From Bacteroidales bacterium (GTDB lineage: Bacteria; Bacteroidota; Bacteroidia; Bacteroidales; WCHB1-69), in assembly GCA_016285145.1 (NCBI GenBank), contig JAEEQE010000034.1, positions 1-34,315 on the forward strand: DNA of 34,315 nucleotides. The letters run 5' to 3'. This document shows positions 3,873-22,119 of the stretch, piece by piece (positions within the stretch are counted from its first letter, which is position 1; each line of letters opens with the position of its first letter). The position numbers and the translations under genes were made by a program. The notes under the pieces are model-generated. The model saw nothing but the letters and a program-made list of their open reading frames with translations. It did no database searches and was not told the origin of the DNA.

Positions 3873-6458
3873 ATGACAAAAAAGCATTTATTTCTGAATA
3901 GACTGGCAACTTTTGCGTGCCTTTTCCTGTTTGCGGGCATGTCGTCCGCACAGACCACCACGAGCTTTCTGGTGACCAAAGACTCCACTTGGACGATACC
4001 GACGACATTGGATGACGGCATCACGCCGATGACAGTCACTTCTGTGACCTTCGAGGCTATCGGTGGCGGCGGTGCCGGCGGCTACATGACCATGGGTGTT
4101 TCCCGTCGTGGTGCTGGTGGCGGCGGCGGCGGCGCCTACGCCACTGTCACCGTGGCGAATCCTACCGGCTCTTTCCAGATCATTCCCGGAGCAGGCGGCA
4201 CCAATCCTCTTGACGGTCCCACCATTTCAGGCACTGCCTCCATCGTAAAGCAAGGCAGTACGAATATTTTGGTTGCCGCAGGTGGTACATCTTCCCCATT
4301 CACAAATCGTGAGGGAGGAACAGGAGCCCTTGGCGGCCAGGCTTCCGCTTGTACCCCCACGGCTGGCGCACATAGCGGTGGTAACGGCGCTGATCCATAC
4401 GGCACTTTGGTGGGCTGGCTGTACACCTACAGCGGTGGTGGCGGTGGCGCGGCCAACACCGGAGGGGATGGGAACTATGCCCGTTCTACTAATGAAGTGA
4501 TTGGTGGTACACCCGGCACGGGCACCATGCCTGCGGGCAAAGGTGGCAACGGCATACAAAGCGAATCAGCAGATGGCCATGCTGGCGAAAATTATGGCGC
4601 TGGCGGTTCCGGTGCAACAGCCTATCTCATGGGAATCGGTAAGGCCGGGGGCGCCGGCGCCCCCGGCGTGGTGCGCGTCACCTACACCTATATCGGCGAA
4701 AGTGTCTCGATGAACGATGCCGAAACCTCCATCTGTTCCGGTGCCACGTATGATGTGGCCCTTGACATCACCCCTGAAGGATTCACCCTTAACCAGCTTA
4801 CCAGCACCAAATTCAGGATTATAATGACAGATGTGAGTGGACTCAGCATCAGTTCCAACGACCCCACCTATAATAACCTTGACCGCAAATGGCACCTCAT
4901 CGGCTCCGTGACCAACACCACGAGCAACACCCTCTCCTTCAACCTCAACGTCACCGTTTCCACACCGAATAGTATGGCCAACGCTACTGCCACGGTCACG
5001 GTCAATGTCTATAGCCAACTCAACGGCGGTGTCATCGCTGAAAATCAATTGGTTTGTCCGGGCCAGACCATCCAACCCCTCACAAACGTTACAGATGCCA
5101 CTGGCGGATTCGGTAGCGGTAGTTATCAATGGTGGCAACGGGTGATTCTCGATGAAAATGGCAATTCGGGAAGTGGAGATTGGGAACAAATTTCAGGTGC
5201 CAATGGTTCTACCTATACTCCAATGTTGGGTGGACTGCGGTATTTTAAAAGAGAATATAAGGATAACGTGTGTGGAAGCATTTATGCCACTGACGGTGCC
5301 GGCTCTCAATATTTGAATGTCACAACAGTGGATCCCTATACATTTGAGGGCAGCTGGTCGGCCAACGATACCATTAGCTCAACGGTTTCTTCCTACACTA
5401 AAACGTTAGATTGGGGTGTGACCACCCCTGCCTATATGGCTTCTTATGGCCAGTATTGGCAAAAATCAACGGACAAAGGAGCCTCTTGGACGAATTTAGC
5501 TCCTGGATTTGTCAGCGGTTATTCTCCCTATTCGTTGACACTCACTTCCTCTGATCTTACCGCCGGAACCGATCTCTGGTATCGCGCAGCAGTGAAGTAT
5601 AATGACTGCGACTCCATCCCCAGCAATGAAATCTACAAAATCCACGTGAGAGAAGTCGCAGACTACACCAACCAGTTCCCCGATGTGAATATCACGCTGT
5701 GGTACGGTGCATGCGATACGAGCACCGCCGCCCTGCCCACCCCCACGCTTACCCCCGCTCCGGTCTCCATCGTCCGTGTTGACGGTCTTGACAGAGTCCC
5801 CGCCGGCGAACACAATATTCTCTGGAAGGTGAACGTCGGCAGCTCCGATTCCACGTTCACCCAAAAAGTGACGGTGACCTATCCCGCTTGCGGCACGACA
5901 GTCACCGATGCTGACGGCAGGGAGTATCAGACCGTACGCGTCGGCTGCGACTGCTGGATTGCCGAGAACCTCAAGACCAGTGCTGACGGCGCCGCCTACT
6001 ACATGGAAGACAACGCCAACGAAGCCTTCGGAAAACTCTACGACTGGAATGCCGCCGTGGGCAGCAACAACATCGAAAAAACCTGCAAGACAGGCACATA
6101 CATCCAAGGTGTTTGTCCCGACGGCTGGGCCCTCCCTACCGCTGCGAAGTTCAACAACATGCTGGCCGAAGTTGTCGATATGGAAGCACTCAAGTCTGAT
6201 GACGAGAGCACTTGGCTGCCCGGCAAGGCCGGCACCAACACCTCCGGTTTCGGTGCCAAGGGCGCTGGTTTCTATGAATCCATGCGGTACCAGAGTCAAC
6301 TCGGTTACACCTACTTTTGGACTTGCGAGCTCAACCCGAGCGAATCCCTCCTGGCCAGAACTGTGGAACTCCGCTGCGGTTGCGGCGAGTTCACCGTCTT
6401 CGACAAGATCAAGGATTGCAAATTCAGTGTGCGCTGCGTGAAAGTCGAAACCAATTAA
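3873..6458 (+). CDS. Secreted glycine-rich protein with C-terminal FISUMP domain
   Basis: Read from the ATG at 3873 the product has 861 residues. An in-frame TTG at 3849 would add eight polar residues before the signal peptide and is less likely. A signal peptide ends near residue 26 (GMSSAQ). Residues about 55-260 are a glycine/alanine/serine-rich domain of the sort found in cell-surface adhesin-like proteins. Next come immunoglobulin/PKD-like beta repeats to about 665. The last 190 residues are a Fibrobacter succinogenes major paralogous domain, with the hallmarks VTDADGREYQTVRVG, CWIAENLKT, CPDGWALPT and a final KFSVRCVKV. Function of FISUMP is unknown. No separate type IX sorting domain follows it. 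It is followed 3 bases later by the TonB-C protein, so they share a transcript. Probably exported; role unknown. Confidence 0.8.
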   Translation: MTKKHLFLNRLATFACLFLFAGMSSAQTTTSFLVTKDSTWTIPTTLDDGITPMTVTSVTFEAIGGGGAGGYMTMGVSRRGAGGGGGGAYATVTVANPTGSFQIIPGAGGTNPLDGPTISGTASIVKQGSTNILVAAGGTSSPFTNREGGTGALGGQASACTPTAGAHSGGNGADPYGTLVGWLYTYSGGGGGAANTGGDGNYARSTNEVIGGTPGTGTMPAGKGGNGIQSESADGHAGENYGAGGSGATAYLMGIGKAGGAGAPGVVRVTYTYIGESVSMNDAETSICSGATYDVALDITPEGFTLNQLTSTKFRIIMTDVSGLSISSNDPTYNNLDRKWHLIGSVTNTTSNTLSFNLNVTVSTPNSMANATATVTVNVYSQLNGGVIAENQLVCPGQTIQPLTNVTDATGGFGSGSYQWWQRVILDENGNSGSGDWEQISGANGSTYTPMLGGLRYFKREYKDNVCGSIYATDGAGSQYLNVTTVDPYTFEGSWSANDTISSTVSSYTKTLDWGVTTPAYMASYGQYWQKSTDKGASWTNLAPGFVSGYSPYSLTLTSSDLTAGTDLWYRAAVKYNDCDSIPSNEIYKIHVREVADYTNQFPDVNITLWYGACDTSTAALPTPTLTPAPVSIVRVDGLDRVPAGEHNILWKVNVGSSDSTFTQKVTVTYPACGTTVTDADGREYQTVRVGCDCWIAENLKTSADGAAYYMEDNANEAFGKLYDWNAAVGSNNIEKTCKTGTYIQGVCPDGWALPTAAKFNNMLAEVVDMEALKSDDESTWLPGKAGTNTSGFGAKGAGFYESMRYQSQLGYTYFWTCELNPSESLLARTVELRCGCGEFTVFDKIKDCKFSVRCVKVETN
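4644..4667. repeat. 24-bp perfect GC-only palindrome inside the glycine-rich coding region
   Basis: Bases 4644-4667 form a perfect palindrome centred between 4655 and 4656 and made only of G and C. In the gene it encodes glycine/alanine/proline codons. It could fold as a strong cruciform or RNA hairpin in the middle of the reading frame. Confidence 0.7.
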
Positions 6459-6461
6459 GAA

Positions 6462-6911
6462 ATGTCAATGGAAGAGAAAGATAAGAAGAAAAAAAAGCAT
6501 TTTCTGGAAAAGCCCCAGTATCCTGGCGGGCAGAAAGCCCTGCGCGACTTTGTGAACGCGCATTTGCAATACCCGGAAGACGCTATGCAGCAGCGTATTG
6601 AAGGCGTGGTGACTGTGGCTTACATGGTCAGCGACGATGGCGAGATTGTGAACCCCACCATCGTCAAGGGACTGTGCCCGTCGTGCAACGCGGAGGCCAT
6701 CCGCATTGTGAACCTGCTGAAATACGGGAAGGCCTTCAACCGAGGCGTGCGACTGAAGGTGAACAACAAAATCAACATCCATTTCAAGCTCGCCCCGGCC
6801 CCCACACAGTCCACCATTTCCTACACCGTACAGCCGGCCAAGCCCAAAGGCAACGCTCCGAGATCCCAACCCTCCTCGTCCGGCTATCAATACAGTATCG
6901 ACATATCATAA
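6462..6911 (+). CDS. TonB C-terminal-domain protein without a membrane anchor
   Basis: This 149-residue protein contains a TonB carboxy-terminal domain at about 18-112: KPQYPGGQKALRDFVNAHL, then YPEDAMQQRIEGVVTV and VSDDGEIVNPTIVKG. In Bacteroidota this domain normally sits behind an N-terminal transmembrane helix or in a periplasmic protein. Here the N-terminus is only a short lysine-rich stretch and there is no membrane segment or signal peptide. A Pro/Ser/Gln-rich tail ends the protein. The ATG at 6462 (with a second at 6468) lies 3 bases after the FISUMP gene stop. Either it acts in the cytoplasm, or it is a degenerate or regulatory relative of TonB. Confidence 0.75.
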   Translation: MSMEEKDKKKKKHFLEKPQYPGGQKALRDFVNAHLQYPEDAMQQRIEGVVTVAYMVSDDGEIVNPTIVKGLCPSCNAEAIRIVNLLKYGKAFNRGVRLKVNNKINIHFKLAPAPTQSTISYTVQPAKPKGNAPRSQPSSSGYQYSIDIS

Positions 6912-10451: not shown

Positions 10452-11537
10452 TTAAAAAGTGATTCGATGGATGCCGGCGGGGTATTTGCGTCCGACAAGC
10501 TGTCGAAGCCGCTGGTAGTCGGAGGGGTTCTGCACGAAGTCTATTCGCGTGGCATCCACCAGCAGCACCGGCATGTTGGCATGCTGCCGGAAGTAGGTCA
10601 GGTAGCTGTCCTGAATGCCGGCGAGATACTCGGCGGTGATGTCCTTTTCGTACTCGCGCCCGCGCTTGGCGATGTTCTGCAGCAGATGATCCGTGTCGTT
10701 GTACAAGTACAGGATCAGGTCGGGCTTGGGCAGGAAAGAGGAGATGGTTTCGAAGACCTTGGCGTAGAGGTTGTACTCGTCGTCAAGCAGATTGTTCTTG
10801 GAGAAGATGATACACTTGTCGATGAAATAGTCGCCAATGACGCAGTCCTTGAAGAGGTCGCGCGCCGAGAGCAGGTTCTTAAGCTGCTGGTAGCGGTCCA
10901 TGAGGAAGGTCATCTCCACCGGGAACGCATAGTGCACGGGATCCTTGTAGAATTTGGGCAGGAATGGGTTGTCGGCGAAGCGCTCCAGCACGAGCTCCGC
11001 ATTGCAGTCGGCGGCCAGCATCTTGGAGAAGGTGGTCTTGCCAGCCCCAATGCAGCCCTCCACGACAATGTAATTGTAGGGAATGTCGCCCATACGCTGG
11101 TCCGCGGCAGTCGCCGGAATACGGATGCCCAGCTCGTCCAATGAGCGCAACACGAAATCGCGTTCGGAGATACGGGGGTGGGGGAGCGTCAGGCGTTCGT
11201 CCTGATAGACCAGCCCGTCATAGTCGAGGATGTCCAGGTCAATGGTCCTGTCGTGATAACGTGGCACCCCGTCCGTATAGGTTGTCTTCTCCGTGCGCCC
11301 GAGGTCCCGTTCGATGCGCTGCAGCGCGTCCAACAGCGGCAAGGGCTCCAACGGCGTGCGCACCACCACCACCTGGTTGAGGAACGGCGGCGCATCGAAA
11401 CCCCATGCCTCCGTCTCAATCACGGAGGAGGCACGCACAATCCCGCCGATCCGCCCACCAATCAGGAGGCGCGCCTGCGACAGGTTCGCGGCACGGTCCC
11501 CCATATTGCTGCCTAATGCTATGACTGCTTCTTTCAT
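10452..11537 (-). CDS. folK: Bifunctional HPPK / deoxynucleoside kinase fusion
   Basis: One 361-residue frame joins two enzymes. Residues 1-145 are 6-hydroxymethyl-7,8-dihydropterin pyrophosphokinase of folate synthesis: IALGSNMGDR, PPFLNQVV and RYHDRTIDLDIL carry the substrate- and Mg-binding residues. Residues about 150-361 are a deoxynucleoside kinase of the salvage pathway, with P-loop EGCIGAGKTT at 160-169, ERFADNPFLPKFY and the RGREYE lid-like region. The join (IPATAADQRMGDIPYNYI) has no stop or frameshift. I chose ATG 11537 because the longer frame from 11579 only adds residues encoded by the upstream terminator. The promoter box lies 7 bases before this ATG. I recall the two genes being adjacent or fused in other Bacteroidota. 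Confidence 0.9.
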   Translation of the reverse strand: MKEAVIALGSNMGDRAANLSQARLLIGGRIGGIVRASSVIETEAWGFDAPPFLNQVVVVRTPLEPLPLLDALQRIERDLGRTEKTTYTDGVPRYHDRTIDLDILDYDGLVYQDERLTLPHPRISERDFVLRSLDELGIRIPATAADQRMGDIPYNYIVVEGCIGAGKTTFSKMLAADCNAELVLERFADNPFLPKFYKDPVHYAFPVEMTFLMDRYQQLKNLLSARDLFKDCVIGDYFIDKCIIFSKNNLLDDEYNLYAKVFETISSFLPKPDLILYLYNDTDHLLQNIAKRGREYEKDITAEYLAGIQDSYLTYFRQHANMPVLLVDATRIDFVQNPSDYQRLRQLVGRKYPAGIHRITF

Positions 11538-11544
11538 ACGGCGG

Positions 11545-11552
11545 CAAAGATA
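11545..11552 (-). promoter_or_regulatory. -7 promoter box, 7 bases from the folK ATG
   Basis: The minus strand reads TATCTTTG, then 7 bases, then the ATG at 11537. Using the SRP RNA here as a ruler (box to RNA 5' end about 6 bases), the mRNA would start at or next to the ATG. The T-tract of the upstream terminator runs directly into this box. Confidence 0.6.
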
Positions 11553-11587
11553 AAAAAAAGATGCCTGCAAAGCAAGCATCTTTTTTT
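11552..11587. terminator. Intrinsic terminator after the 51-residue gene
   Basis: Arms near 11561-11568 and 11572-11580 (GATGC/GCATC closing, one internal mismatch) with an AAA loop are flanked by A on the left and T on the right. It is symmetric but its useful direction is leftward, 1 base after the small gene's stop. Confidence 0.75.
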
Positions 11588-13476: not shown

Positions 13477-15555
13477 CTACGCTCCGTGTTCCATCAGGAA
13501 TCGCGACGCCTCAATACCGGCCATGGCTCCGGACGCAGCAGCTATGATAGCCTGCCGGTAGTTGGGATCTTGAACGTCGCCGGCAGCGAACACACCCTCC
13601 ACATTCGTGAACGGTGTGCCGGGCCGGGTAATGATATACCCATTCCCGGTCATCTCCAACTGGCCCTGGAACAGTTCCGACACTGGTGTGACACCGATGG
13701 CCTCGAACACACCGTCCACTTCGATGGTCTGTTCCGCCTGCGTGACGACATCACGCACCTGCAGGCCTGTAACCTTCTTTATGAAGCCTTTCTGTTCGCC
13801 AATCACATCCACGGGTACGGTGTTCCAAAGGACTTCTATGTTGGATGTGGACAACACCGCATTCTGCAAAGCCTTGGTGCCCCGGAATTGGTCGCGGCGA
13901 TGCACGATATAGACCTTGGTACAGAGTTGTGCGAGGTAGAGGGCATCTTCCAAGGCGGTGTCACCGCCTCCTATGACCACCGTGGTCTTGTTGCGGAAAA
14001 AGTTACCGTCGCAGGTAGCGCAGGTTGACACTCCAAAACCTCTGAATTTCTGCTCATTAGGCATTCCAAGCCAGCGGGCAGTGGCACCTGTGGACACAAT
14101 CACTGTATCGGCTACAATCTCCCCCTGCCCGTCCAGAACGCAATGGAAGGGGCGGCTGGAGAAATCCACTGCGGTGATTCTGCCGGAACGCATCTCCGTG
14201 CCCACACGCAGGGCCTGCGCCCGAATGTCATCCATGATGACAGGCCCAGACGACCCTTGGGGATAACCAGGGAAATTCTCCACCTCATTCGTGATCGTAA
14301 GCTGGCCACCGGGCTGCATTCCTTCAATCAGCAGCGGTTTCAAATCGGCCCTGGCCGCATAGATGCCGGCGGTATAACCCGCTGGTCCAGAACCGATTAT
14401 AAGGCATTTCACGTGCTCTGACATATAATCCCGCATATCCAGACTCATAATCCGATCATACGCCTGAATATTCTTGGTCTCTGTCCGCAAAAATACGGTG
14501 GCGGCTACGCCGGACGTCTTGTCGGGTACGCGACGCACATCAATCACGCCGGGGAAGTCGGCGCTGAATTTGGCCTCGTTGAAAACCATATTCTCACAAC
14601 CTGAAGGCAAATCAAGCACAGTGAAAGCGTATGTCAAGTCCTCTTTTCCACGCCACATCTCCTCCTTCGTCACACGCCGTCCCTTCAAGTACGACAGCAT
14701 AGGATGATGACCGCTAATGAAAACCTGCAACTCATTCAGGCAGAAGCCCGTGAACCGTAACGGGTTGATCTCTATCGGCACCGCTTTCCGACCGTCATAG
14801 CGAAATTCAATGTGCATGGGGAAATTCCGCAGATGCAGCGTATTATTGAGATTCGTAAGAAACTTGGTGAACGTTTCCTCATACTGATCGAAAAGGCCTT
14901 TGTTGGTCATGTACAAGCGGTCGGATGTGTCAGACTCGTCCATGAACTTATGATGGAAGATATTCAATATCACAGGACACTCGTTTTCATCGTAGTAGGC
15001 ATCCACTGCATACTCTTCACCGCCGATGTATTCCTCTATCAGGAAGCGGCTCTTTCCGACCACAAACTCCGGAAAATCGGCGCCAGCCTTCGCAAAATCA
15101 TGTTGTAAAGATTCCACGGCCTTCTTGTATTCTTCAGGATTGTGTACCACGAACACCCCCTTACTCAGAAATCCTACCGATGGCTTGATGACACAAGGAA
15201 AGACTATACTGTTTGTGTCAAGTTGTTCCATCTCGTTGATATTAACCTCTTTGAAGAAGAAATCAGGGTAAATGTCGCGACAGATCTTCCGGAATGCGGC
15301 CTTGTCCTTCACAATGGAGATGCCATCCAGAAAGCGCTTGTCTTGGATGTGGTCATAAATCCATCCAAGGGCATTTTCAGAAACGGTATAGAGTTTACCT
15401 ATATTATTATATTCATCACAAAATTCTTCGTCAGACATGATCTTGCCATCCGGCACACGTTGCCCGGACATTTCATTCTTTAATACAGGGATATCGTTTT
15501 CCACCAGGGTTTTCACCATCAGGTCAGATACAAAAGGACGCTCTAAAATTACCAT
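13477..15555 (-). CDS. trxB: ATP-grasp / thioredoxin reductase fusion protein
   Basis: A single uninterrupted frame of 692 residues carries two complete enzymes. Residues 1-377 are an ATP-grasp ligase-type protein: CVIKPSVGFLSKGVFVV with Lys124, FLIEEYIGGEEYAVDAYY, and the Mg site MHIEFRYDG...VPIEINPLRF (Glu250, Glu262, Asn264). Residues 378-692 are a full-length thioredoxin reductase: FAD motif IIGSGPAGYTAGIYAAR, redox CATC at 512-515, NADPH motif GGGDTALEDA and AAGDVQDPNYRQAIIAA. Met378 (ATG at 14424) is where a normal TrxB would begin (MSEHVKCLIIG), so internal initiation could also yield free TrxR. The ATP-grasp substrate is unknown. This fusion is not one I know. Own promoter box at 15623. 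Confidence 0.85.
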   Translation of the reverse strand: MVILERPFVSDLMVKTLVENDIPVLKNEMSGQRVPDGKIMSDEEFCDEYNNIGKLYTVSENALGWIYDHIQDKRFLDGISIVKDKAAFRKICRDIYPDFFFKEVNINEMEQLDTNSIVFPCVIKPSVGFLSKGVFVVHNPEEYKKAVESLQHDFAKAGADFPEFVVGKSRFLIEEYIGGEEYAVDAYYDENECPVILNIFHHKFMDESDTSDRLYMTNKGLFDQYEETFTKFLTNLNNTLHLRNFPMHIEFRYDGRKAVPIEINPLRFTGFCLNELQVFISGHHPMLSYLKGRRVTKEEMWRGKEDLTYAFTVLDLPSGCENMVFNEAKFSADFPGVIDVRRVPDKTSGVAATVFLRTETKNIQAYDRIMSLDMRDYMSEHVKCLIIGSGPAGYTAGIYAARADLKPLLIEGMQPGGQLTITNEVENFPGYPQGSSGPVIMDDIRAQALRVGTEMRSGRITAVDFSSRPFHCVLDGQGEIVADTVIVSTGATARWLGMPNEQKFRGFGVSTCATCDGNFFRNKTTVVIGGGDTALEDALYLAQLCTKVYIVHRRDQFRGTKALQNAVLSTSNIEVLWNTVPVDVIGEQKGFIKKVTGLQVRDVVTQAEQTIEVDGVFEAIGVTPVSELFQGQLEMTGNGYIITRPGTPFTNVEGVFAAGDVQDPNYRQAIIAAASGAMAGIEASRFLMEHGA

Positions 15556-15622: not shown

Positions 15623-15630
15623 CAAAAATA
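15623..15630 (-). promoter_or_regulatory. -7 promoter box of the ATP-grasp/TrxR gene
   Basis: The minus strand reads TATTTTTG, 67 bases before the ATG at 15555. The AT-rich leader contains no obvious hairpin. Confidence 0.6.
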
Positions 15631-15654: not shown

Positions 15655-17052
15655 TTATCCTTTACGGAAAACAATCCAATTGGTGGTGAAATCGTGCGTG
15701 CGCGGGAACAGTTCCTGCACATGGTTATGGTTGTCGCGATACCATGAGTGGTTCCAGCCGGGCCCCATGTCCATGTAGAGGGCCTCTTGCATCCCGTATT
15801 CCTCTAACTGTTTGACGAACTGTGCGTACGGGATCTTTTCCTGCGAGTCGGCGATGCACACCTTGCCGTCTTTGAGGCATAACGCACGGTAGTAGTTGTC
15901 GTTCTTGCGCCACAAGGGCCGTGTTTTGCCCTTGTGGATGATGCAGACCTGGCAGAAGCCCATGCCGCCGCGCCGCGCGGCCAGCTGCAAGGCGTTGTCT
16001 ATATGAGTGGTCAGGAACTGCGGCTGATGGTCATACCAGACGAAGCATCCTGTGTTCTTGTCGCATACATATCCTTTGTAAAATGTGCCGCCCGCCACAT
16101 GGTCGCCGGCGATGTTCTGGTGCCGGAACCTGCGAAGTTCCTCGCCCGTGAACGCAGCCTCTGCACAGAAGATGACATCGGAATCCTCGGCGGTGGGCAT
16201 TGTGCCGCACATGAGGTCAATGCAGTCGTATTGCGGATAGAAGACGTTAAGGCCGTTCGCCGTATCGCAAAGGATGTTGAGGGTGCGCCGCAAGGCCGTG
16301 TCGGAGTTCCTCGACTGCACCATGACGGTCAAGAAGGCCAGCATCTGTTCCGTGCCGTGGAAGGTGTTCAGATCCACATCGCCCTTGGCCCAAGAGAAAC
16401 GTGCATTGTGCTGGTACTGCCAGAAAAGGTAAGGCTGCCCTATGTTCGGTTGTCCATTCAAAGAGCAAATCCATAGAGGATTTTTGGGAAATCTATTCTG
16501 AATGTATTTTTTGTAACCATCCAAGTTGGTGTATATCATCACTTTGTTTTGGCTGATGGCTTCAAATCGTTGGATGAAGTCTTCAATCACCTGGATGCGC
16601 TGCTGGGTGCTCTTGTCGGATGGGTTGCTCCAATCCTCCACATCCACAACGGGCATAAGGTCGTAGGATTTGCTGCGTATGACTTCGTAGAAATGGTCGG
16701 CCTGCCGGCTGCCATCCTCGTTGAAGCGCAAGAAATGGTAGAACCCGACAGGCAGGTCGGTCTGCAGTGTGACCGCCCGATGGTGACGCGGCATGAGCGT
16801 GTCGATGCCGTCCATCCCCATGGTGGCCCGCATATACACGAAACGGATGCTGTCTTGCGATGCCCGGCGAAAATCCACCGTCCCCGTGTAGGAGGAGATG
16901 TCAATACCCGTCATGGGGTGCTCGAAAACAACATCCCCTTTGAGGTTCTGGTGGAAATGTTTTCGGATAAAATAATAAGACACCCCGGCTATCAGAAGGA
17001 GAACGATGAGGGAGAATAAGAATTGCAGGAATCGCCGGTGTGTTTTTTTCAT
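15655..17052 (-). CDS. Membrane-anchored GH25 muramidase-like protein with extra C-terminal domain
   Basis: This 465-residue protein has a short basic N-terminus, one membrane helix (about 9-29) and a GH25 domain (about 45-240). GH25 enzymes cleave the N-acetylmuramyl bond of peptidoglycan; the signature GIDISSYTGTVDF (Asp51), the FVYMRATMG strand and the DxE pair Asp137/Glu139 in MPVVDVED are present. Residues about 285-465 form a second domain: GGTFYKGYVCDK, the charged middle RALCLKDGKVCIADSQ and EEYGMQEALYMDMGPGWN. This order resembles the phosphodiester-glycosidase (NAGPA/DUF2233) fold, where a final conserved acidic-glycine motif is usual; that reading is inference. It starts 6 bases after asd, so the two are co-transcribed. 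Confidence 0.75.
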   Translation of the reverse strand: MKKTHRRFLQFLFSLIVLLLIAGVSYYFIRKHFHQNLKGDVVFEHPMTGIDISSYTGTVDFRRASQDSIRFVYMRATMGMDGIDTLMPRHHRAVTLQTDLPVGFYHFLRFNEDGSRQADHFYEVIRSKSYDLMPVVDVEDWSNPSDKSTQQRIQVIEDFIQRFEAISQNKVMIYTNLDGYKKYIQNRFPKNPLWICSLNGQPNIGQPYLFWQYQHNARFSWAKGDVDLNTFHGTEQMLAFLTVMVQSRNSDTALRRTLNILCDTANGLNVFYPQYDCIDLMCGTMPTAEDSDVIFCAEAAFTGEELRRFRHQNIAGDHVAGGTFYKGYVCDKNTGCFVWYDHQPQFLTTHIDNALQLAARRGGMGFCQVCIIHKGKTRPLWRKNDNYYRALCLKDGKVCIADSQEKIPYAQFVKQLEEYGMQEALYMDMGPGWNHSWYRDNHNHVQELFPRTHDFTTNWIVFRKG

Positions 17053-20631: not shown

Positions 20632-22119
20632 TTACAAGCTCCATTCGGCTCCGTCTTTCGTATCTTTGACGGTGATGCCTGCCTCTTTGAGTTCATCCCG
20701 GATTTTATCGGAGATGGCCCAGTTCTTGTTGGCCTTGGCATCCTGACGGATAGAGAGCACGAGGTCCATCACCTTGTTCATGGCCTCGCTGTACTTGTCG
20801 GCCACGTTGGCGGTTTCCGGCTTCATACCCAAGATGTCAAAGAAGAAGGTGCGGTAGGTCTGGGCCAGGAGGGCTATATCCTCGGCCGTCAGCGCCATGT
20901 GACCGTCCTTGACGGCATTGATGATACGGGCCGCTTCGAAGAGTTCGGCGATGACCTTTGGCGTATTGAAATCGTCGTTCATGGCATCATAACAACGCTC
21001 AACCCATTCGGCAATATTCTCGTCGGATTTGTCGGAGGTTTTGAGCTTATCGAGGTGCCGTTCGGCGGCATACAGCTTCTCCATGCCCTTTTCGGCGGAT
21101 TGGAGAGCCTCATTGCTGAAGTCAACCGTGCCGCGGTAATGGGCCTGGAGGACAAAATAACGGATGGTCATTGGAGAGTAAGCCTGCGTGAGCATCGGAT
21201 GCGAGCCCGTGAAGAACTCGTTGAGGGTGATGAAATTACCCAGCGACTTGCCCATCTTCTGACCGTTGATGGTAATCATATTGTTGTGCATCCAGTAGCG
21301 CACAGAACTCTTGCCGTTAGCCACGGTACTCTGACACACTTCGGATTCGTGGTGCGGGAACAACAGATCCATGCCGCCGCCGTGGATATCGAATTGTTCG
21401 CCTAAGTATTTGGTGCTCATAGCTGTACATTCGATATGCCAGCCAGGGAAGCCCACGCTCCATGGCGAATTCCAGCGCATAATGTGCTCGGGTGCGGCCT
21501 TTTTCCAAAGGGCGAAGTCGGCGGGATTGCGCTTCTCGCTCTGGCCGTCCAACTCGCGGGTGTTGGCAATCAGCTCGCTCAGCACGCGACCCGAGAGCTT
21601 GCCGTAGCCGAAAGCCTTGTCGAATTTCTCCACATCAAAATAGACGGAACCTTCCGACACATAGGCATAGCCTTTGTCAAGGATTTTTTGCACCATCTCA
21701 ATCTGTTCGATGATGTGACCGGAAGCACGCGGCTCGATGGAGGGCCCCTTCACGTTGAGGGCCTCCATGGCATGGTGGTAGCTGTCCATATAGTATTGGG
21801 CCACCTCCATAGGCTCAAGCTCTTCCAGGCGTGCTTTCTTGGCGATCTTGTCCTCACCATCGTCGGCATCGTGCTCCAGATGGCCCACGTCGGTGATGTT
21901 TCGCACATAACGTACCTTATAGCCAATGTGGGTGAGATAGCGGAAAACGATGTCAAAGGTCACCGCCGGGCGCGCGTGGCCCAGATGGGGCTCACCATAC
22001 ACCGTGGGGCCGCACACATATAAGCCCACATGGTCGGGAACAATGGGTTTCAGAAGCTCTTTACGCTTTGATAAAGTATTGAACAATAAAACTTTGCCTT
22101 TGTTGTCAGTTGGATTCAT
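20632..22119 (-). CDS. cysS: Cysteinyl-tRNA synthetase
   Basis: This 495-residue class I synthetase charges tRNA-Cys. The zinc/cysteine site begins [19 protein letters not shown], including the HIGH-equivalent HLGH. The second zinc ligands follow in [10 protein letters not shown] and PHHESEVCQ. The KMSKS loop is KMGKSLGNF, with Gly for the usual Ser. The DALR-type helical end ([13 protein letters not shown]) and the C-terminal [21 protein letters not shown] are normal. Length is right for the family. Its promoter is the box at 22153, opposite the aldehyde dehydrogenase promoter. Confidence 0.96.

Follow-up and report, generated by a model that had tools for sequence, protein, structure and literature searches.

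The window, by which we mean the whole 34,315-nucleotide stretch of Bacteroidales DNA analysed here, carries on its minus strand an open frame of 692 codons that runs from an ATG at 15555 to 13477. A first-pass annotation had described such a frame, with a complete ATP-grasp ligase in residues 1-377 and a complete thioredoxin reductase (TrxR) in residues 378-692, and had left its strand unstated. The frame is real and both domains were confirmed by Pfam and TIGR01292 matches; ORF translation places it on the minus strand, the plus strand having stops in the same frame (13477..15555). The features of the locus are:

13477..15555, minus strand: fused ATP-grasp/thioredoxin reductase gene, 692 aa (ORF and translation, Pfam, NCBIfam, same fusion in L032/G041)
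14425..15555, minus strand: ATP-grasp half, residues 1-377, PF13535 (Pfam, alignment, stand-alone relatives)
13477..14424, minus strand: TrxR half, residues 378-692 plus stop, with the CATC cysteines at TrxB positions 135 and 138 (TIGR01292 above cut-off, alignment A2)
14415..14433, minus strand: junction, where the codon for the penultimate Met of most stand-alone type I ligases is the trxB start and the last ligase codon and stop are gone
15623..15630, minus strand: putative Bacteroidales -7 box, TATTTTTG, 75 nt upstream of the fused-gene start
15655..17052, minus strand: glycosyl hydrolase family 25 protein, the upstream neighbour, context only (Pfam)

The ATP-grasp_4 family (PF13535) matched residues 118-274 with 184.2 bits against a cut-off of 27, covering model positions 2-159 of 160, and the thioredoxin-disulfide reductase model TIGR01292 matched residues 383-687 with 358.7 bits against 343.45, covering profile positions 2-300 of 300. 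The halves abut with zero linker (377/378), and the second opens at a native-like TrxB start, as had been claimed: Met378 aligns with the starts of native TrxB proteins (MSEHVK...). K124, E250, E262 and N264 of the ligase half, which we take to be the conserved lysine and metal-binding Glu/Asn of ATP-grasp enzymes, are invariant in a 17-row alignment that includes stand-alone relatives. The TrxR half is invariant (alignment A2, 16 rows) at C135 and C138, presumably the CxxC redox pair, and at G11-x-G13-P-A-G16 and G152-G-G-D155, presumably the FAD and NADPH sites. No thioredoxin domain was found among the Pfam matches of the fused protein (E<=0.001), and the TrxR domain forms the end of the protein.

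When compared with known systems, the fused protein shares with TrxB (TIGR01292) the full domain, the CATC, FAD and NADPH motifs and an above-cut-off score, and differs in the 377-residue ATP-grasp enzyme at its N-terminus. The TrxR half matched 44 distinct solved sequences at E<=1e-30, a few of them AhpF. AhpF (TIGR03140) likewise has an N-terminal domain on a TrxR-like core, and solved AhpF chains align to the TrxR half with their residues 215-516; by analogy, it is a precedent for N-terminal fusion to a TrxR core, although its N-terminal part is thioredoxin-like and not a ligase, and the fused protein scores 203.6 bits against the TIGR03140 cut-off of 502.9. Unlike NTRC, a TrxR-thioredoxin fusion, the protein has no C-terminal thioredoxin domain. 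On the ligase side, stand-alone Bacteroidales ATP-grasp_4 proteins keep the same conserved residues but stop a few codons from the fusion point. The closest solved relative of this half is the L-amino-acid ligase BL00235 (PDB 3vot; profile E 4.6e-11), which aligns to ligase residues 105-255 only, and its substrates are not transferable. GshF and glutathione synthetase are likewise ATP-grasp ligases, the former in a fusion; the ligase half differs from them in that none of its 22 NCBIfam matches at E<=1 is a glutathione-synthetase or GshF model. No fusion of an ATP-grasp ligase to TrxR is described in the titles and opening abstract text of the literature searched.

A role in defence or phage biology was also considered and rejected: at E<=0.01 neither PADLOC nor PHROG gave a match, no phage record was found, the one plasmid match was weak and partial, and no relative was confirmed in viral contigs. 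Elsewhere in the window, a Cas1-like protein (PF01867) is encoded at 500-1360 on the minus strand with a 105-aa frame alongside at 176-493; positions 1-1800 contain no direct repeats of at least 20 nt, so any CRISPR-type array would lie elsewhere. The window also encodes an HPPK (FolK) fused to a deoxynucleoside kinase domain (10452-11579, minus strand), which is present in G041 as well (96%). G004 encodes a fusion of riboflavin kinase and GNAT acetyltransferase domains (L057, 10571-11434), of which the G000 counterpart is only 134 aa long.

Distribution of the fusion and constraint on its halves

The same fusion was found in a second genome (L032 = G041 = G056), a Bacteroidales metagenome-assembled genome from sheep rumen, with the junction ...LDMRDY/MSEHVK... 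in both and with flanking genes common to the two. The fused genes of the window and of this genome are 90.3% identical in DNA and 96.2% identical in protein; 169 of their 201 differences lie at third codon positions, and pairwise dN/dS is 0.03-0.05 in each half. The shared junction and flanking genes in a second species indicate that the join is older than the split of the two lineages, and the dN/dS values indicate that both halves are under selection. The earlier suggestion that the fusion might be an error or a single-strain accident thus fails, as a second species has the same junction. That the second genome is metagenome-assembled and the window's own lies in 71 contigs could raise the suspicion of an assembly or binning artefact, or of a sequencing error joining two genes, but two assemblies about 10% apart in gene DNA share the junction, the flanks and the absence of trxB next to sufB described below, which makes an artefact so improbable as to be practically negligible.

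Within the genus (40 genomes), the fusion occurs in two genomes, while 18 have matches to both genes, unfused and always on different contigs (one gene being partial in G002, G007 and G016), 13 have trxB without a ligase match, three have the ligase alone, and four, which are 51-87% complete, have neither gene at E<=1e-40. In the remaining genus genomes of this set, no trxB match runs into a ligase frame. With the exception of the window's own genome, the fusion was absent from 295 sampled genomes of the order and 395 of the phylum, in searches that took the top two to three candidates per genome at E limits of 1e-125 and 1e-122, respectively, and that a very divergent fusion could escape. A search of the genome collection for relatives of the ligase half returned 19 loci, namely the fused L032 and 18 others without trxB, and none of 72,556 plasmid records covers 80% of the fused query. 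As far as the genome sequences go, the fusion is real and lineage-specific, and it is known from two genomes.

Relocation of trxB and formation of the junction

A simple origin put forward in the first-pass annotation was the fusion of two adjacent genes by loss of a stop. This origin is contradicted by the relatives, since the genes lie on different contigs in all 18 unfused genus genomes that have both, and trxB is usually near sufB. Among 30 non-fusion genomes matching both trxB and sufB, trxB lies directly upstream of sufB (<300 nt) in 15; in eight more the two share a strand and are no more than 7 kb apart, and in one they are 28 kb apart; in the other six, the genes are on different contigs (sufB being partial in two of these). 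At the sufB site of both fusion genomes, which is contiguous, no trxB and no remnant of it was found, the only matches being short and at chance level. In G004 and G047, trxB adjoins sufB and there is no ligase match, this absence being less sure in G047, which is 84% complete.

The ends of the unfused genes bear on how the junction arose. Stand-alone ligases end in Tyr-Met-X-stop in 14 of 18 loci, with Val in place of Met in the other four, one of which extends a few codons further. Native TrxB begins MSEHVK in G004, G022 and G023, and the fusion reads ..LDMRDYMSEHVK... Together, these ends and starts indicate that the penultimate Met codon of the ligase coincides with the ATG of trxB. The end of the ligase gene has about five bases (ATATG) in common with the beginning of trxB in G004 or G022, and from this short match we infer illegitimate recombination. 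Flanks carried along with either half were also sought: the downstream DNA gave no blastn match in 11 loci, and the upstream DNA gave short, chance-level matches only.

In the reading that we favour, the move took place in an ancestor shared by the two Bacteroidales species: the sole detected trxB would have departed from its customary position next to sufB and become attached, in frame, at the 3' end of a gene for an ATP-grasp ligase. Its ATG would have replaced the ligase's penultimate Met codon, with the loss of the last ligase codon and the stop, and trxB would have lost its own promoter on joining.

A separate observation concerns the sufB site itself. In both fusion genomes, sufB is preceded at -40/-41 by a TATTTTTG box (L083 around 6400-6540; L084), where relatives have trxB. 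No such box was found in the 150 nt before sufB in G004 and G047, and several other genomes also have boxes before sufB. These boxes may be the former promoter of trxB, left in place and now driving sufB.

History of the ligase gene

In the SufB tree, the fusion genomes group with G004 and G047 (98/98) inside clade B, and the TrxR tree places them in the same way, less firmly (84/89, G022 included). The ligase does not follow this pattern: the SufB tree includes 16 clade B genomes, of which seven have type II ligases, seven have no match, and the two fusion genomes alone have type I. Stand-alone type I relatives are 78-86% identical to the ligase half and near-equal in length. The type II ATP-grasp subfamily, about 55% identical, is seen in relatives from clade B as well as in a further family (L074, L075, L076, L022, L145-L147), and type II loci share neighbours only among a few close relatives.

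Identity comparisons show the same discordance. The fusion ligase is 86% identical to those of the clade A genomes G050 and G020, while the TrxR proteins between them are 75% identical. Mean ligase identity is nearly flat, at 82% among clade A genomes, again 82% when these are compared with the fusion and 80% when they are compared with a further group C (six of a ten-genome set), whereas TrxR identity, taken from four of seven clade A genomes, falls from 95% to 75% and 63% over the same comparisons; SufB is 98% identical within clade A and 88% between clade A and the fusion. Flat ligase identities set against falling TrxR identities indicate that the ligase gene has a separate history, and judging from the sequences it was probably acquired horizontally, from another Bacteroidales lineage.

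In an AU test, holding seven clade A ligase rows together was rejected (p-AU 2.5e-58, other clade A rows omitted). When G003, G007 and L047 were added (ten clade A rows, without the fusion), the constraint was not rejected (p-AU 0.165); G003 and G007 belong to clade A by SufB, CysS or TrxB identity, and the clade of L047, whose genome gave no TrxR match, was assumed from the ligase tree. Since the ten-row test was not rejected, the ligase tree by itself does not rule out vertical descent; the tree test being indecisive, we base the claim of horizontal transfer on the identity comparison and the gene distribution.

A side observation is that cysS of the window (20632-22119, minus strand) is 99% and 98% identical to its counterparts in G018 and G044 and about 87% identical to those of the closest relatives, G004 and G047, and was likely transferred or exchanged. 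G044 carries two cysS copies.

A probable single chain and its predicted activities

The fused genes have a TATTTTTG box in common at -75 (window) and -76 (G041), and the stand-alone ligase of G050 has it at -75; a box occurs anywhere in the 150 nt upstream in six of the 24 ligase upstream regions listed. We take TAnnTTTG to be the consensus of the Bacteroidales -7 box. A stand-alone TrxR might be made beside the full protein, starting from Met370, Met374 or Met378, whether by internal initiation, from a cryptic promoter in the ligase gene or by proteolysis: in-frame ATGs are present at all three positions, the TrxR half retains its native start, and the sole box in the window's ligase sequence (TATTTTTG) lies 71 nt before Met378. 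That box, however, is not conserved in G041, which has TATTCTTG there, and Met codons at these positions are normal for the C-terminal end of the ligase. In clade B, a TAnnTTTG box precedes the start by 26-29 nt in 11 of 12 native trxB genes, and neither fusion has one at -26 to -29 of Met378, although in clade A none of ten native genes has a box within 100 nt and the box is thus not a universal mark. The A content before Met378 is low (0.20), yet within the native range (0.15-0.75). Predicted mRNA folding is less accommodating: the energies around Met378 are -11.5 and -9.8 kcal/mol in the two fusions, close to the gene-body background (-13.7) and more folded than all 27 native trxB start windows (mean -3.9, range -6.7 to -0.6 kcal/mol). 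Met378 is thus not predicted to sit in open mRNA as native trxB starts do, which makes a single fused product most likely on sequence grounds and two products unlikely.

Neither fusion genome gave a further TrxR match at E<=0.001, other than one of 24% identity in each that falls within a frame of 759 aa; with completeness at 94.8% and 91%, a second trxB could be missing from the assemblies. The window's genome has six thioredoxin-domain matches, of which two are strong (97 and 88 bits). Given that no second TrxR was found and that this genome encodes thioredoxin-domain proteins, the fused protein probably is the working TrxR and supplies the cell's TrxR activity. Its C-terminal half would function as a homodimeric FAD/NADPH thioredoxin reductase of the ordinary kind. 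As for the N-terminal half, retention of the conserved Lys, Glu and Asn makes it probably an active carboxylate ligase, which would activate a carboxylate as an acyl phosphate and join it to a nucleophile, probably an amine.

Whether the two activities serve each other is a separate matter. The first-pass annotation had offered, as an attractive hypothesis, a ligase making a small thiol, or thiol carrier, coupled to its own reductase, and the GshF fusion is indeed a known thiol-making ligase (PMC7278568). A covalent join kept across species divergence, with both halves constrained, would also suit a coupled enzyme, in which the TrxR half would reduce the ligase half or its product, or control either through redox state, making a new bifunctional ligase that may serve a small thiol not recognised so far. 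However, the thiol-pathway reading gained no support from either of the approaches by which it was sought, ligase family models and neighbour conservation: no GshF or glutathione-synthetase model was matched, and around the ligase, in the genus and in other Bacteroidales families, no gene family besides the ligase occurs in more than four of 31 clustered loci. Moreover, the two genes lie apart wherever they are unfused in the genus (18/18), G004 and G047, the closest relatives, have an ordinary trxB but gave no ligase match, the TrxR half is itself ordinary and above its family cut-off, and the histories of ligase and trxB are discordant. We accordingly regard functional coupling as distinctly unlikely. 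An opposite suggestion is that the ligase half is a passenger that gives trxB a promoter, a start site and perhaps solubility; trxB has lost its own promoter and now sits behind the ligase's, and 13 of the 40 genus genomes have trxB without a ligase match. The ligase half is, however, under constraint equal to that on the TrxR half and has retained K124, E250, E262 and N264, so this suggestion is highly improbable.

Taken together, the best explanation, to which we assign a probability of about 70%, is relocation of trxB and its fusion to the ligase gene, the product being most likely a single polypeptide in which two enzymes work independently. What the assembled DNA shows is the junction, the move of trxB, the constraint on each half and the absence of a further TrxR match in the two genomes; translation as a single product, dimer formation and both activities are inferred.

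The locus offers a clean and recent case in which an accessory enzyme, probably acquired horizontally, has become covalently linked to a housekeeping enzyme of which the assembly shows no second copy, and in which one genus still displays stand-alone ligases, trxB beside sufB and the emptied sufB site. It also serves as a warning that gene fusion need not mean a shared pathway. If the coupling were functional, the protein would represent a new redox-linked ligase.
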